A model generated the notes under the pieces. It was not told the origin of the DNA. It saw only the letters and a program-made list of their open reading frames with translations, and did no database searches. Both the position numbers and the translations under genes were made by a program. Positions 5,824-9,238 of a stretch of 21,540 nucleotides of DNA are shown in pieces. Positions within the stretch are counted from its first letter, which is position 1, and every line of letters starts with the position of its first letter. The stretch comes from Acidithiobacillus ferruginosus (GTDB lineage Bacteria > Pseudomonadota > Gammaproteobacteria > Acidithiobacillales > Acidithiobacillaceae): NCBI RefSeq assembly GCF_018854495.1, contig NZ_JABBDR010000277.1:1-21540 (forward strand), written 5' to 3'.

Positions 5824-6951
5824 TCAGCGATAATGCAGCAGATAACGCCACTCAAAGGCGACCTTGGCCGCATGCCAGAGCGAATTTGGCAGGATGCTGG
5901 CATGGTTGGGGCTGCGATAGACCATGATGCCGCTGTCCAGGGTGTCGACGATGCAGATCAACTCGCTGCGGAAAGTATCGTCTGCCGCCTTCCCCTGCAA
6001 ATACAGGAGCAGGTTATGCACGGCGGTCCCGGCCTGCAGGTCCGCCATATGGCCCTGCTTGGGTAGCCAGTCCGGGCTGCCCGCGTAAGACCCCCCGTCA
6101 CCAATGACAAAGACACCCGGATGGTCGGGAACGGTGCAGTGCAGGTCGGACTGAAAAAAGCCACCCGCAGAGAGGGGCAATCCGCTGTCGGCGGCCCAGT
6201 CCGGGCCGGTCATGCCGGGCATGAACAGGATCAGGTCCGCGGCAATGTCGCCGCCTTCGGTCATTACTTTGTTTACCGAGAACCCACTGATTTTATGACC
6301 AAGATGGGTGCGGATGTCGCGCCGCTGCATTTCCGCGAGCAGTCCTTCCACCGCCTTCGGACCCAGCCGGTTGCCCGGTTCGGTCATCAGATTGAAAAAT
6401 ACCAGTTCGATTTGCCCGCGTTTATCGATCTGACGAAGGTAAGTGTCGATTCCGAAGAGCAGTTCAAAGACCGGACCACCGCGTACGGCGGTGGGCTCCA
6501 GGGGATTGCCGGCGAAGCCGAAGGCAATGGTGCCTTTGTCCATCAGCGCCAAGCGGTCTCGGATGTTCTCGGCGGCATCGATGCCGTCGCAGATAGCGAA
6601 ACTGTGCTCGATGCCCGGTAACTTACGGATACCGCGACCGCCGCTGGCGATGATGAGCGCGTCGTTCCGTACTTCACCCTGGTCGGTGATGACGGTACGG
6701 CCGCCATCGCGCAGGCCAGTGACGCGACCCTGATGAAACTGTACCCGTCGGCGCTGAAAGAAACGGTCCAGGGGAATCCGCAGGCTCTCGCCTTGCCGCA
6801 GCCCAGTGGGAATCCAGATCAGGCTGGGGTAGTAAACAAACTCCGCCCTGGGTGCGATGACGGTGATTTCCGCGTCGGGCATCCGGCGACGCAGATGGCG
6901 AACGGCCGTCAGGCCACCAAAGCCTGCGCCGATAATGGTCACTTGGGTCAT
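5824..6951 (-). CDS. SQR-like FAD-dependent oxidoreductase (sulfide:quinone reductase family, atypical)
   Basis: The 375-residue flavoprotein belongs to the pyridine-nucleotide-disulfide / SQR superfamily. It starts VTIIGAGFGGLTAVRHL (FAD ADP-binding motif), has YYPSLIWIPTG after the first strand pair, ALIIASGG near 98-104, and the second FAD motif GVFVIGDGG near 279-287. Only three cysteines occur: C121 (SFAIC), C272 and C333 (ELICIVDTLDSG). C121 and C333 fall where the first and third conserved SQR cysteines lie. The middle one (the C160 position of the Acidithiobacillus enzyme) is absent, the region reading GNPLEPTAVRGGP. Sulfide:quinone reduction is therefore likely but not assured; a persulfide- or thiol-linked quinone reductase is an alternative. 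The start has GAGGA about 8 bases upstream. It follows the His-rich protein gene after a 124-base gap. Confidence 0.75.
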   Translation of the reverse strand: MTQVTIIGAGFGGLTAVRHLRRRMPDAEITVIAPRAEFVYYPSLIWIPTGLRQGESLRIPLDRFFQRRRVQFHQGRVTGLRDGGRTVITDQGEVRNDALIIASGGRGIRKLPGIEHSFAICDGIDAAENIRDRLALMDKGTIAFGFAGNPLEPTAVRGGPVFELLFGIDTYLRQIDKRGQIELVFFNLMTEPGNRLGPKAVEGLLAEMQRRDIRTHLGHKISGFSVNKVMTEGGDIAADLILFMPGMTGPDWAADSGLPLSAGGFFQSDLHCTVPDHPGVFVIGDGGSYAGSPDWLPKQGHMADLQAGTAVHNLLLYLQGKAADDTFRSELICIVDTLDSGIMVYRSPNHASILPNSLWHAAKVAFEWRYLLHYR

Positions 6952-7033
6952 ATGCTATTCCTCAGTAGCAGAAAACGTGGAAGGAAGCCGCAATCGGCCC
7001 CGTTCACACAGTATACTGCATCGGCGTAGCAGA

Positions 7034-7053
7034 GCGCCCGGCGGGCCGGACGC
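7034..7053 (-). repeat. GC-rich hairpin between the His-rich protein gene and the SQR-like gene
   Basis: On the minus strand GCGTCCGG pairs with CCGGGCGC around a 4-base loop, an 8-base-pair stem with one G-U pair. It lies 23-42 bases past the stop of the upstream gene and about 80 bases before the SQR-like start. No T run follows, so it is not a standard intrinsic terminator. It could stabilise the 3' end of the upstream transcript, reduce read-through, or set unequal expression within the gene string. A TATACT (-10-like, in the palindrome CAGTATACTG at 7009-7018) lies just downstream, without an evident -35. Confidence 0.5.
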
Positions 7054-7075
7054 TGATGCTCCTCCGGCAGACTGC

Positions 7076-7693
7076 TCAGCCACCCAGTACACGCTGATAG
7101 TTGTCTGGTAAGGGGCTGACCTCCCGGGCCTGGGCAAAGCCGCGTTGCACGAAGAGGCTGACGACGGCGCCGTGGGCCTGGATGAGGGCCACCACGTTGG
7201 GATCCTCGCTGGTCTCTTCCACAAGGACACCATGGGGTACCAGGGTCACTTCCATCCGCACCTTTTCACGTTGCGCGAAAATTTCGGGAAAGGCTGGATC
7301 CCAGAAGCGCAATCCAAAGTTTTCTTCCAGCCGGTGGTGCATGGCCGGAACATGGTCGTGCAGCAAGCCGACAATCTCCGGGTTGGCAGAAGTCGTCAGC
7401 GAACGTATGCCATTGGGAAGCTGGGTCAATTCACGCTGAATCTGGTCGTGATGGCGAAGCAGGGTATGAAAGACCTCCTGATCGTGCTGATGACGTGCCC
7501 TTTTGTCGGTGTTCCCGCTGCCCGCCAGCATCCGCTGTTCCATCGCTTCTTCATCAGCGAGGCTCATGCCGGCAGGCCGCATGCCCGGCTCATTCCCGAA
7601 ACGAATGCCGCCCTGCCCGCGTCCCTGACCGCCGCCGCCGCCGCCGCGTCTCATGCCTGTCAGTACCCCTTGCACGGTATTTTGTTTGCTCAT
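7076..7693 (-). CDS. Uncharacterised His-rich protein with a tandem 60-residue duplication
   Basis: This is a 205-residue soluble protein whose function I cannot assign. Residues 15-29 are an Arg/Gly-rich linker encoded in part by a (CCG)6 run. Residues 65-82 hold many histidines (RHQHD, RHHD). Two similar units then follow at an exact 60-residue offset: F75/F135, P93/P153, G95/G155, T101/T161, S102/S162, P105/P165, V108/V168, L110/L170 and H114/H174. The conserved His in each unit plus the extra HDH and MHHR suggest metal binding, but the pattern is not that of hemerythrin. The open frame extends to 7753, yet the ATG at 7693 has a good GAGGAG and lies 13 bases after the dioxygenase stop, which indicates cotranscription. 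Confidence 0.85.
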   Translation of the reverse strand: MSKQNTVQGVLTGMRRGGGGGGQGRGQGGIRFGNEPGMRPAGMSLADEEAMEQRMLAGSGNTDKRARHQHDQEVFHTLLRHHDQIQRELTQLPNGIRSLTTSANPEIVGLLHDHVPAMHHRLEENFGLRFWDPAFPEIFAQREKVRMEVTLVPHGVLVEETSEDPNVVALIQAHGAVVSLFVQRGFAQAREVSPLPDNYQRVLGG

Positions 7694-7706
7694 CTTTAAG
7701 TACTCC

Positions 7707-8396
7707 TCATACACTGAGCGCCCCACAGCGCTGGTTGGCGGGCACGGCAACATGAATTTTCTTCGGTTCTGACAAGTGGAGTTCCGCCATGATGGCGATG
7801 AACTCCTCCCGGCTTTTACCCGCCAGGCGACGGTTCATACGCTTTTCCTCGCCGACGCAACTGACGTAGCGACCGGCATAGTCGTGGCCCGGATAGACCA
7901 GGGTCTCGTCGCGCAGTGTGAAGATCTTCCCGGCGATGCTGTCATAGAGCGCCCCAGCATCGCCACCCTGAAAATCCGTGCGGCCACAGCCCCCGATCAA
8001 TAGTGCGTCGCCCGTGAAAACCCGGTCGCGCCAACGGTAACTAACGCATCCTGGAGTGTGGCCGGGCGTACTAATGACCCGTATGACGTCATCACCCAGC
8101 ACGATAAAATCGTCATCATCCACGAGCACGTCTGCACAGGATACGGCGGCCCCGCGGCTGATCACGGCTTGTGCACCGGTGCGCGCACGCAGTGCGCCGG
8201 CGCCGGTAACGTGGTCGGCGTGGACATGGGTATCGAGCACGTATGCAAGTCGCATGGATTCCCGATCAAGTATGCGCAGTACCTCATCGACGGTTTCCAG
8301 AACAGAGTCGATAACCACGGCCTCGTGCCAGGTCGGGTCGCCCAGGATGTAGGTGTAGGTGCTGGTTTCGGTTTCAAGAATCTGTCTGAAAAACAT
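7707..8396 (-). CDS. ETHE1-type persulfide (sulfur) dioxygenase, metallo-beta-lactamase fold
   Basis: This mononuclear non-haem iron enzyme of the ETHE1/SDO family oxidises glutathione persulfide to sulfite and glutathione. In 229 residues it shows the metal-binding set H57-x-H59-x-D61-H62 (THVHADH), H113 (TPGHTPGC), D130 (FTGDALLIGGCGRTDFQ) and H171 (YPGHDY). The family's glutathione-site features R139, the NRRL segment and C224 in VPANQRCG are also present, so it should be active rather than a hydrolase. The open frame reaches 8504, but the ATG at 8396 has an AGGGGGTG ribosome-binding site and begins at the usual place (MFFRQILE). It heads the gene string dioxygenase, His-rich protein, SQR-like protein, and has an FNR-type promoter upstream. 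Confidence 0.92.
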   Translation of the reverse strand: MFFRQILETETSTYTYILGDPTWHEAVVIDSVLETVDEVLRILDRESMRLAYVLDTHVHADHVTGAGALRARTGAQAVISRGAAVSCADVLVDDDDFIVLGDDVIRVISTPGHTPGCVSYRWRDRVFTGDALLIGGCGRTDFQGGDAGALYDSIAGKIFTLRDETLVYPGHDYAGRYVSCVGEEKRMNRRLAGKSREEFIAIMAELHLSEPKKIHVAVPANQRCGALSV

Positions 8397-8455
8397 GATA
8401 TCACCCCCTTGTCGGCAACGATGTTGGAGCACCAACTGGTGCCCTGAGACGCTCA

Positions 8456-8504
8456 CCTTCCCACCATAGGACGCAGTGAGTGTGCCTGCATTGAGAATTA
8501 TCAA
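8456..8504 (-). promoter_or_regulatory. Predicted class II FNR-type promoter of the dioxygenase operon
   Basis: On the minus strand TTGAT-AATT-CTCAA (8504-8491) matches the FNR/ANR box TTGAT-N4-ATCAA at 9 of 10 positions. A -10-like TATGGT lies at 8468-8463, putting the expected start of transcription near 8456. The centre of the box then falls at -41.5, the classic spacing for class II FNR activation, and there is no -35 hexamer, as expected for an activator-dependent promoter. The untranslated leader would be about 60 bases. The regulator encoded next door has the FNR-type recognition residues, so local control is likely. Spacing and match are seen; binding is inferred. Confidence 0.62.
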
Positions 8505-8515
8505 AGTTGACTGAT

Positions 8516-8527
8516 TTAGTTAACTAA
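8516..8527. promoter_or_regulatory. Perfect 12-base palindrome TTAGTTAACTAA
   Basis: This AT-rich perfect inverted repeat lies in the 140-base gap between the end of the regulator gene and the dioxygenase gene. Its centre is about 24 bases upstream of the FNR box centre, on the promoter-distal side. It may be a second operator, a UP-like element or a binding site for another dimeric factor. No T run follows it, so it does not look like a terminator. Confidence 0.35.
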
Positions 8528-8536
8528 CAGGGAGGT

Positions 8537-9238
8537 TCAGGCGCGGGTGCCGTCGCTGCTGGCGTACAGGAACAGGTTTCGGGAATCAGGAATCTCGATG
8601 TGCCCCTTGTGTTCGTGGAGCAGCCCGTGGCGTTTCAGGTCCGCCATGATGCGGCTGACGTGCTCGGTGGAAAGGCCAAGAAACTCCCCCAGGTCCTGAC
8701 GGGTGAGGGGGAAAGGCGCCGCACGTTGTTGCGGATAGGCACCGACCCATTGGCAGAGGAACGTGGCCAGCCGGGCATCGGCCTTTTTGGCACCCAGTTC
8801 GACGATGCGGTCCTCGGCTTCCTGCAGTGCCTGCTGCCAGCGCGCGAAAATGGCTTCACGCACTGCCGGGAGACGCTGGGAAAGCGCATCCAGTGCCCTC
8901 AGTTCCAGGCGGCAGAGATCGGTGCCGGTCAAGGTAATGGCACTATGACGATGCCGGTCGGTGCGCAATCCTTCAAAACCCAGGAGGTCGCCGTGGTGGA
9001 GCAGGCGAACGATCTGAGCGTGACCATTGGGCAGACTCTTGACCAGCTTGATGCCGCCCTGACGAAGCGTATAGGCATATTGCGCAGGGTCGCCCTCGTG
9101 ATAGATCGGCGTTCCTGTCGGGACGTGGATATCGTGGACGTCCATGCCGAGTTCGCAGACTTCTTCCCTGCTCAACCCGGCAAAAATGCTTCGTCCGCGC
9201 ATGAGGCAATGCACACAGTCGGAGTGCTTGGCAGTCAC
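8537..9238 (-). CDS. Crp/Fnr family transcription regulator (FNR-like, incomplete cluster-cysteine set)
   Basis: This cytoplasmic dimeric DNA-binding regulator has 233 residues. The N-terminal C8-x2-C11 matches C20 and C23 of E. coli FNR, and C109 aligns with C122 (25 residues after the conserved Asp in both). The position of FNR C29 is Ser17. C28 and C162 are extra cysteines. Next come the cyclic-nucleotide-type beta-roll (about 35-110), a dimer helix (about 125-155) and a winged helix. In the recognition helix, LSTEHVSRIM, E192, S195 and R196 equal the FNR E-SR triad that reads TTGAT. The start is GTG, overlapping the trmB stop (GTGA). An oxygen, nitric oxide or sulfur-species signal is possible; the missing ligand makes a classical oxygen-labile [4Fe-4S] cluster uncertain. 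Confidence 0.88.
   Translation of the reverse strand: MTAKHSDCVHCLMRGRSIFAGLSREEVCELGMDVHDIHVPTGTPIYHEGDPAQYAYTLRQGGIKLVKSLPNGHAQIVRLLHHGDLLGFEGLRTDRHRHSAITLTGTDLCRLELRALDALSQRLPAVREAIFARWQQALQEAEDRIVELGAKKADARLATFLCQWVGAYPQQRAAPFPLTRQDLGEFLGLSTEHVSRIMADLKRHGLLHEHKGHIEIPDSRNLFLYASSDGTRA

Follow-up and report, generated by a model that had tools for sequence, protein, structure and literature searches.

What does a protein without cysteine do when its gene lies between those for a persulfide dioxygenase (PDO) and an SQR-like flavoprotein, and what controls the genes around it? The question arises from four consecutive minus-strand open reading frames at 5824–9238 of the window, the whole 21,540-nucleotide stretch of Acidithiobacillus ferruginosus DNA analyzed here, which encode an FNR-type regulator, the PDO, a histidine-containing protein (the His protein) and the flavoprotein. 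We read the locus as a unit for persulfide oxidation under FNR control, to which a new accessory protein belongs that probably binds a soft metal, and give this explanation a probability of roughly 45%. An FNR-type site before the dioxygenase gene (sdo), the shared occurrence of the His gene with fnr, and His and Met residues kept throughout the family point to it.

A recurring unit of four genes

The window makes up one of the 309 contigs of a genome that measures 3.0 Mb and is close to A. ferrooxidans. Its four genes are arranged as follows.

8537..9238, minus strand: fnr, CRP/FNR-family regulator, 233 amino acids; the GTG start overlaps the end of the upstream gene
7707..8396, minus strand: sdo/pdo, ETHE1-type persulfide dioxygenase, 229 amino acids
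7076..7693, minus strand: His protein gene, 205 amino acids; Gly-rich N-terminus and duplicated core (residues about 63–205)
5824..6951, minus strand: sqr-like gene, SQR-like flavoprotein, 375 amino acids

The intergenic gaps are 140 bp (fnr-sdo), 13 bp (sdo-His) and 124 bp (His-sqr). For the dioxygenase the ATG at 8396 is the likeliest start, giving 229 rather than 265 amino acids, because homology begins there and a ribosome-binding-like GGGGGTGAT precedes the ATG. Position 7693 is the most likely start of the His protein and gives 205 amino acids.

The same four genes are present in genome G014, with proteins 95–99% identical to those of the window. The survey of relatives covered 39 of 40 loci (L114, a fragment, was excluded), with genes called as the longest open reading frame and start positions approximate; it would miss other kinds of SDO. 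Twenty-one fnr-linked units were found, in 19 Acidithiobacillaceae genomes and two Sulfuriferula. Their order is fnr-sdo-His-sqr in 11 (in one of these only the first 137 sqr residues matched), fnr-His-sqr in four, fnr-sdo-His in one and fnr-His in five, with sdo traces readable by our own inspection in the gap of at least two fnr-His units. An Acidihalobacter contig has the order sdo-His-sqr. Because the order recurs in related genomes, it is not due to chance. The initial annotation had described four consecutive minus-strand genes for a regulator, a dioxygenase, a His protein and a flavoprotein; all four reading frames were confirmed, and the combination of FNR, PDO, His protein and SQR proved to be a recurring unit.

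Of 29 Acidithiobacillaceae genomes, the same 19 hold orthologues of fnr and of the class-A His gene, the class of the window, and the other 10 have neither. SQR orthologues are present without class-A His and fnr in G002, G008, G017, G020 and G028; G004 and G016 retain His and fnr, their best PDO matches reaching only 31–42%. The His gene is the constant member alongside fnr, while PDO and SQR do not follow that pattern.

The regulator and the two enzymes belong to known families. In the fnr product Cys8, Cys11 and Cys109 are present and Ser17 replaces the third Fe-S Cys, leaving three Cys and one Ser in place of four Cys ligands. FNR recognition helices follow the pattern E--SR, and EHVSR was found in 6/6 aligned sequences. 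The dioxygenase is similar over its full length to the solved PDOs 9rhq (1–226, E 7.7e-107), 4chl (ETHE1; 8–233, E 3.8e-62) and 5ve4 (BpPRF). The ETHE1-type iron ligand set consists of HxHxDH, H, D and a C-terminal H, and the translation contains HVHADH, GHTPG, GDALL and PGHDY. The flavoprotein matches PF07992 (E 1.5e-18) and the structures 3t2y and 3h8i, and has the SQR-like FAD fold with two dinucleotide-binding parts. The redox pair of A. ferrooxidans SQR is C160/C356. Of the three flavoprotein cysteines (Cys121, Cys272 and Cys333), Cys333 is C356-like and Cys121 matches C128; the place of C160, the second SQR cysteine, holds no Cys, so that only the first and third are present. This bears out the earlier claim that a key SQR cysteine is missing. 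Among 13 aligned flavoproteins, the window's included, Cys121 and Cys333 are kept in 13/13 and Cys272 in 12/13, and no other column has Cys in three or more. The score against the NCBIfam SQR model NF049943 is 85.7 bits at a cut-off of 525. For this reason we call the flavoprotein SQR-like, although its A. ferrooxidans orthologue AFE_0267 acts as an SQR when overexpressed, with an effect under anaerobic conditions only (PMC12016491).

In A. ferrooxidans ATCC 23270 the four genes recur in unchanged order as AFE_0270–AFE_0267 (FNR, SDO, unnamed, SQR). AFE_0270 has been characterised as an FNR with Ser in place of Cys29, a description that the window FNR fits (PMC6659574). AFE_0269, the dioxygenase orthologue, has glutathione-dependent dioxygenase activity, and its mutant grows more slowly on sulfur (PMC6335251). 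AFE0267 is given as sqr (PMC2621215) and located downstream of sdo AFE_0269 (PMC5584763), and overexpression of afeI lowers AFE_0267 and AFE_0269 together (PMC7984328). A gene called ‘sdo12’, not necessarily the present sdo, is higher anaerobically (PMC12016491). The PDO/SQR part is not new, being already published for A. ferrooxidans. AFE_0268, the His gene, is named in none of the six papers searched that carry any of the AFE_0270–AFE_0267 tags.

The FNR-type site before sdo

Two elements in the gap between fnr and sdo could provide the switch.

8491..8504, minus strand: FNR-type site TTGATAATTCTCAA, one mismatch to TTGATNNNNATCAA; extended form TTGATN5TCAATGC
8463..8468, minus strand: candidate -10 hexamer TATGGT, 29–34 bases downstream of the FNR-site centre

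TTGATN5TCAA occurs once in the window, at the site before sdo (expected 0.06), and the extended form has a single occurrence in the 3.0 Mb genome. Most units carry TTGAY-N4-VTCAATGC between fnr and the next gene. Over the 21 fnr-linked units, mismatches to TTGATNNNNATCAA number 0 in five, 1 in 12, 2 in three and 3 in one. The 17/21 units with at most one mismatch are included in a total of 23 such places in 304,602 positions (22 loci, one per genome, 21 of them with fnr). Counted from the site centre, the TATAAT match averaged across these related units is highest at offset 29, with 3.33/6, a value without a shuffle control; the next-highest mean, away from the site itself, is 2.19. A -10 at that distance is the geometry of class II FNR promoters. 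The site is among the findings that support the initial annotation.

This FNR-type site appears new and would place sdo-His-sqr under oxygen control. It may already be contained in an earlier published list, reportedly that of Osorio 2009. The excerpts on the ATCC 23270 cluster do not mention an FNR-type site before sdo, which is reported here; one of them cites an earlier list of FNR sites and states that none was found upstream of fnr itself (PMC6659574).

The same gap holds one more element, upstream of the window sdo; separately, AFE_0269 has been listed among genes with a predicted lux box (PMC7984328).

8516..8527, unstranded: perfect 12-bp palindrome TTAGTTAACTAA, 11 bp upstream of the FNR-type site; partly retained in near relatives

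The His protein and its family

The His protein contains 11 His, 8 Met and no Cys. Alignment of its two halves with hhalign (one versus one) gave a probability of 98.7 and an E of 2.9e-16, and the core is a tandem duplication, as had been supposed. Arg87, Gly95, His114 and His174 are invariant in 115/115 members below 80% identity, Gly185 in 114/114, and Met118 is kept in 114/115. His114 and His174 align with each other across the two repeats. These residues would most simply be read as a symmetric site of two His and one Met that holds a soft metal or heme; such a site fits both metal-efflux and sulfide contexts.

Cysteine is not conserved in the family: no core column exceeds 10% Cys among the 115 members, and 11/72 close homologues contain some Cys. 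DsrE, TusA and rhodanese carriers depend on a conserved catalytic Cys, which the His protein lacks. Its want of Cys rules out that it carries sulfane sulfur in the form of a Cys persulfide, and a sulfur relay via Cys was rejected on this ground. Searches of Pfam, NCBIfam, PHROGs and PDB gave no convincing match to the His protein. When 36 members were scanned, weak Pfam matches fell on 37 families (best E 0.0011), with FliK in 11/36 at E up to 0.5, and were judged to be chance. A hemerythrin-like di-iron protein, an idea from the His spacing, found no Pfam support and was dropped. Elsewhere in the window genome, G000:C52:6244-6345 weakly matches the start of the His domain (E 5e-6).

The His protein is under purifying selection even in loci that have lost sdo, sqr or both. 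Across six genomes of this kind the His core has a dN/dS of 0.02–0.12, below that of fnr (0.08–0.14) in 14/15 pairs, with dS above 1 in 8 of those pairs.

The family reaches well beyond the fnr-linked units. A profile search matched 636 proteins, of which 120 were listed. Family members were found in 6/398 sampled genomes of the window's phylum (its own included), in 28/198 genomes of one family taken as Rhodobacteraceae and in 15/294 genomes of the phylum of a planctomycete locus; these counts are lower bounds, as the sampling scored part of the first-look candidates.

In Planctomycetes the setting is one of sulfur chemistry. In 9/15 genomes with the His family, an MBL-rhodanese gene is no more than 4 kb away from it (21 such genes across the 15), with SQR-like genes near in 6/15 and DsrE adjoining or fused in 7/15. 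Here MBL-rhodanese is called PDO-like by architecture, and the labels PDO-like and SQR-like stand for NCBIfam scores below the curated cut-offs. DsrE is fused to the His domain in three proteins among the 120 of 636 matches listed. With an ArsR-family regulator and rhodanese genes in some of them, these clusters resemble the bigR-blh type; their permease is presumably TauE-like. At L105:6489-8881, a planctomycete locus, a methyltransferase-His fusion stands beside rhodanese, MBL-rhodanese and DsrE genes. The window locus is like sqr-pdo and bigR-blh operons in having SQR and a persulfide dioxygenase, and differs in its extra His protein and in an FNR in place of an ArsR/BigR-type regulator. 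It shares its pathway neighborhood with DsrE/TusA carriers, which unlike the His domain have a conserved Cys.

Other members lie by metal genes. Among 19 class-B loci taken from Acidithiobacillaceae, 18 gave a class-B match (L067 is a fragment). The class-B member, which looks exported, lies directly 3' of cusA in 12/18, the cusA match being partial in two of these; one further locus has it behind a cusA remnant. The planctomycete locus L176 also has the order cusA-His. CusF, the periplasmic Cu(I) chaperone of CusCFBA, is a small OB fold. Class-B members likewise end a cusCBA-type row, look exported and Met-rich, and have invariant His and Met; the family differs from CusF in its duplicated core, in matching no Pfam family and in a class A that looks cytoplasmic. 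Six plasmid regions were taken from records in two lists of 12; five carry mercury, cadmium or arsenic genes or other metal transporters (merA, a cadmium transporter, a P-type ATPase, a CopY-type regulator and arsenic genes among the neighbors), and the sixth does not. Six proteins end in a stretch read as YHS-like, and a source gives three proteins that name.

Several further arrangements were observed. L206 (A. ferrooxidans YQ-N3 plasmid) and L207 (Acidiphilium multivorum JZ-6 plasmid), mobilizable plasmids of two genera, share a near-identical merA-redoxin-hypothetical-His-MFS-MBL-ArsR-RND block. Two Acidithiobacillus genomes (L060:5958-7624 and L062:6171-7932) have an ETHE1-type sdo within 1 kb after a class-B His gene; in L060 that sdo is itself followed by part of a class-A His gene, as if an sdo-His block had moved there.

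In Rhodobacteraceae, PDO-like and SQR-like genes lie beside the His family in 2/32 class-B loci. L119:1358-5003 and L190:3545-6801 hold, on one strand, class-B His, a Blh-like PDO and a TIGR01244-SQR-like fusion; L119 has an extra gene, which we take to be ferritin-like. The class-A copies sampled there (L091, L093–L095) neighbor genes of other metabolism. An SqrR-like ATTC-N8-GAAT site precedes the class-B His gene in L184 and L191 (2/32; 0.06 expected from simple shuffles), and a de novo dyad search before the Rhodobacteraceae copies found nothing. The family thus recurs independently beside PDO-like/SQR-like genes, in Planctomycetes and in the two Rhodobacteraceae loci. The initial annotation had proposed co-occurrence of His homologues with sulfur genes as a test, and the answer depends on lineage.

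Proposed role and competing explanations

In the explanation that we favor, FNR, the product of the first gene, would bind TTGAT-N4-CTCAA before sdo at low oxygen. To judge from site and geometry, it would act as a class II activator for the transcription, presumably joint, of sdo, the His gene and probably sqr. From family knowledge and the published activities of the A. ferrooxidans orthologues, SQR would convert sulfide to sulfane sulfur and pass the electrons to quinone, and PDO would convert glutathione persulfide and oxygen to sulfite. The His protein would be an accessory rather than a sulfur relay. His114 and His174, one per repeat, would form with Met118 a soft-metal site, most likely for Cu(I), or hold a heme-type cofactor instead, and the protein would protect or supply metal chemistry disturbed by sulfide and persulfide. 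Exported relatives would do an equivalent job in the periplasm, by CusCBA efflux or in metal-resistance islands.

Several points weigh against this explanation. Adjacent genes can disappear together, and some genomes are incomplete. The 21 units are akin (19 genomes of one family and two Sulfuriferula), and site conservation, -10 peak and co-occurrence are not independent events. In a simple general scan the minus-strand gaps showed neither promoter nor terminator, and no site was listed at the proposed -10, with promoter counts at chance level. PDO needs oxygen, and microaerobic use is assumed. Metal binding is inferred from the invariant His/Met and gene context. Class-A members have no visible signal sequence and many relatives look exported, as read by eye rather than with a predictor, and Pfam offers no precomputed domain for the YHS-like ends. 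In Rhodobacteraceae, 30/32 class-B loci have no PDO/SQR detected in the flanking DNA, loci with short flanks (e.g., L178, L184, L198, L203 and L204) being counted as lacking sulfur neighbors, and most copies stand alone. Outside Acidithiobacillaceae and Sulfuriferula, 23/25 surveyed loci have no window-type PDO or SQR, the exceptions being L090 and L105 (31% match). CueR-like motifs precede 0–1/32 and SqrR-like motifs 2/32 Rhodobacteraceae copies. A site search in the surveyed loci, which left planctomycete and class-B Acidithiobacillus promoters outside, found no FNR-type site with at most one mismatch before a His-family gene beyond the fnr-linked units, and TTGA-N6-TCAA precedes 0/32 Rhodobacteraceae copies; weaker sites with two mismatches precede the gene in five non-fnr-linked loci (L090, L105, L106, L110 and L111). 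FNR control of all family members was rejected on these counts.

The initial annotation had proposed a variant sulfane-sulfur pathway with the His protein inserted as a relay between SQR and PDO. The recurring unit is supported, and the relay is not. An obligatory relay for sulfur or electrons would suit the position between sdo and sqr in 11/21 units, the one with a partial sqr match included, and the company of PDO-like, SQR-like and DsrE genes in Planctomycetes, as well as the DsrE fusions in three listed proteins. The protein has no Cys, is retained without sdo in 9/21 units and without sqr in 6/21, and was not found in G028 (61% complete), where PDO and SQR lie side by side; many relatives, moreover, lie with metal-resistance genes or alone. 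We regard a relay as unlikely. Nor do we expect, though the chance is real, that the His protein serves FNR and not sulfur, by feeding or protecting the Fe-S cluster or as a sensor of gas or redox state encoded by a gene that remains with fnr. Presence identical to fnr across 29 genomes, a constant place downstream of fnr and the fnr-His pair in 5/21 units would all follow from such a service, but the loss of adjacent genes together would also give this pattern. No window-type FNR was detected beside the copies in L077 and L090–L113, a Crp/Fnr-like gene is near only 2/46 loci of Rhodobacteraceae and other copies, and none is found in planctomycete loci. We hold it to be as unlikely as the relay that a general soft-metal resistance protein was recruited beside sdo by chance and takes no part in sulfur oxidation. 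The cusA neighbors, the plasmid regions and the YHS-like ends agree with resistance; the recurrent PDO-like/SQR-like/DsrE clusters in Planctomycetes and the two Rhodobacteraceae loci do not.

Returning to the proposed metal-binding accessory, what appears new is an unnamed protein family under selection that recurs with persulfide oxidation and soft-metal efflux and is probably metal- or heme-binding. More tentatively, the His protein could found a new family in which a duplicated, Cys-free domain holds a soft metal (Cu(I)) or heme at a His-His-Met site. Such domains would be present in persulfide units of at least two phyla and in copper, mercury and cadmium efflux loci, and the His protein would couple the handling of metals to the oxidation of sulfane sulfur. 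Within Acidithiobacillus this protein would be the fixed element of an FNR-switched unit with a changing set of enzymes.

For A. ferrooxidans, a model organism of biomining, the sulfur pathway at low oxygen is unsettled. The conserved FNR-type site before sdo offers a specific switch that can be put to the test, and it would agree with the anaerobic-only effect of AFE_0267 (PMC12016491). A function for the His family would annotate many hypothetical proteins (636 profile matches) and could link metal and sulfur chemistry.

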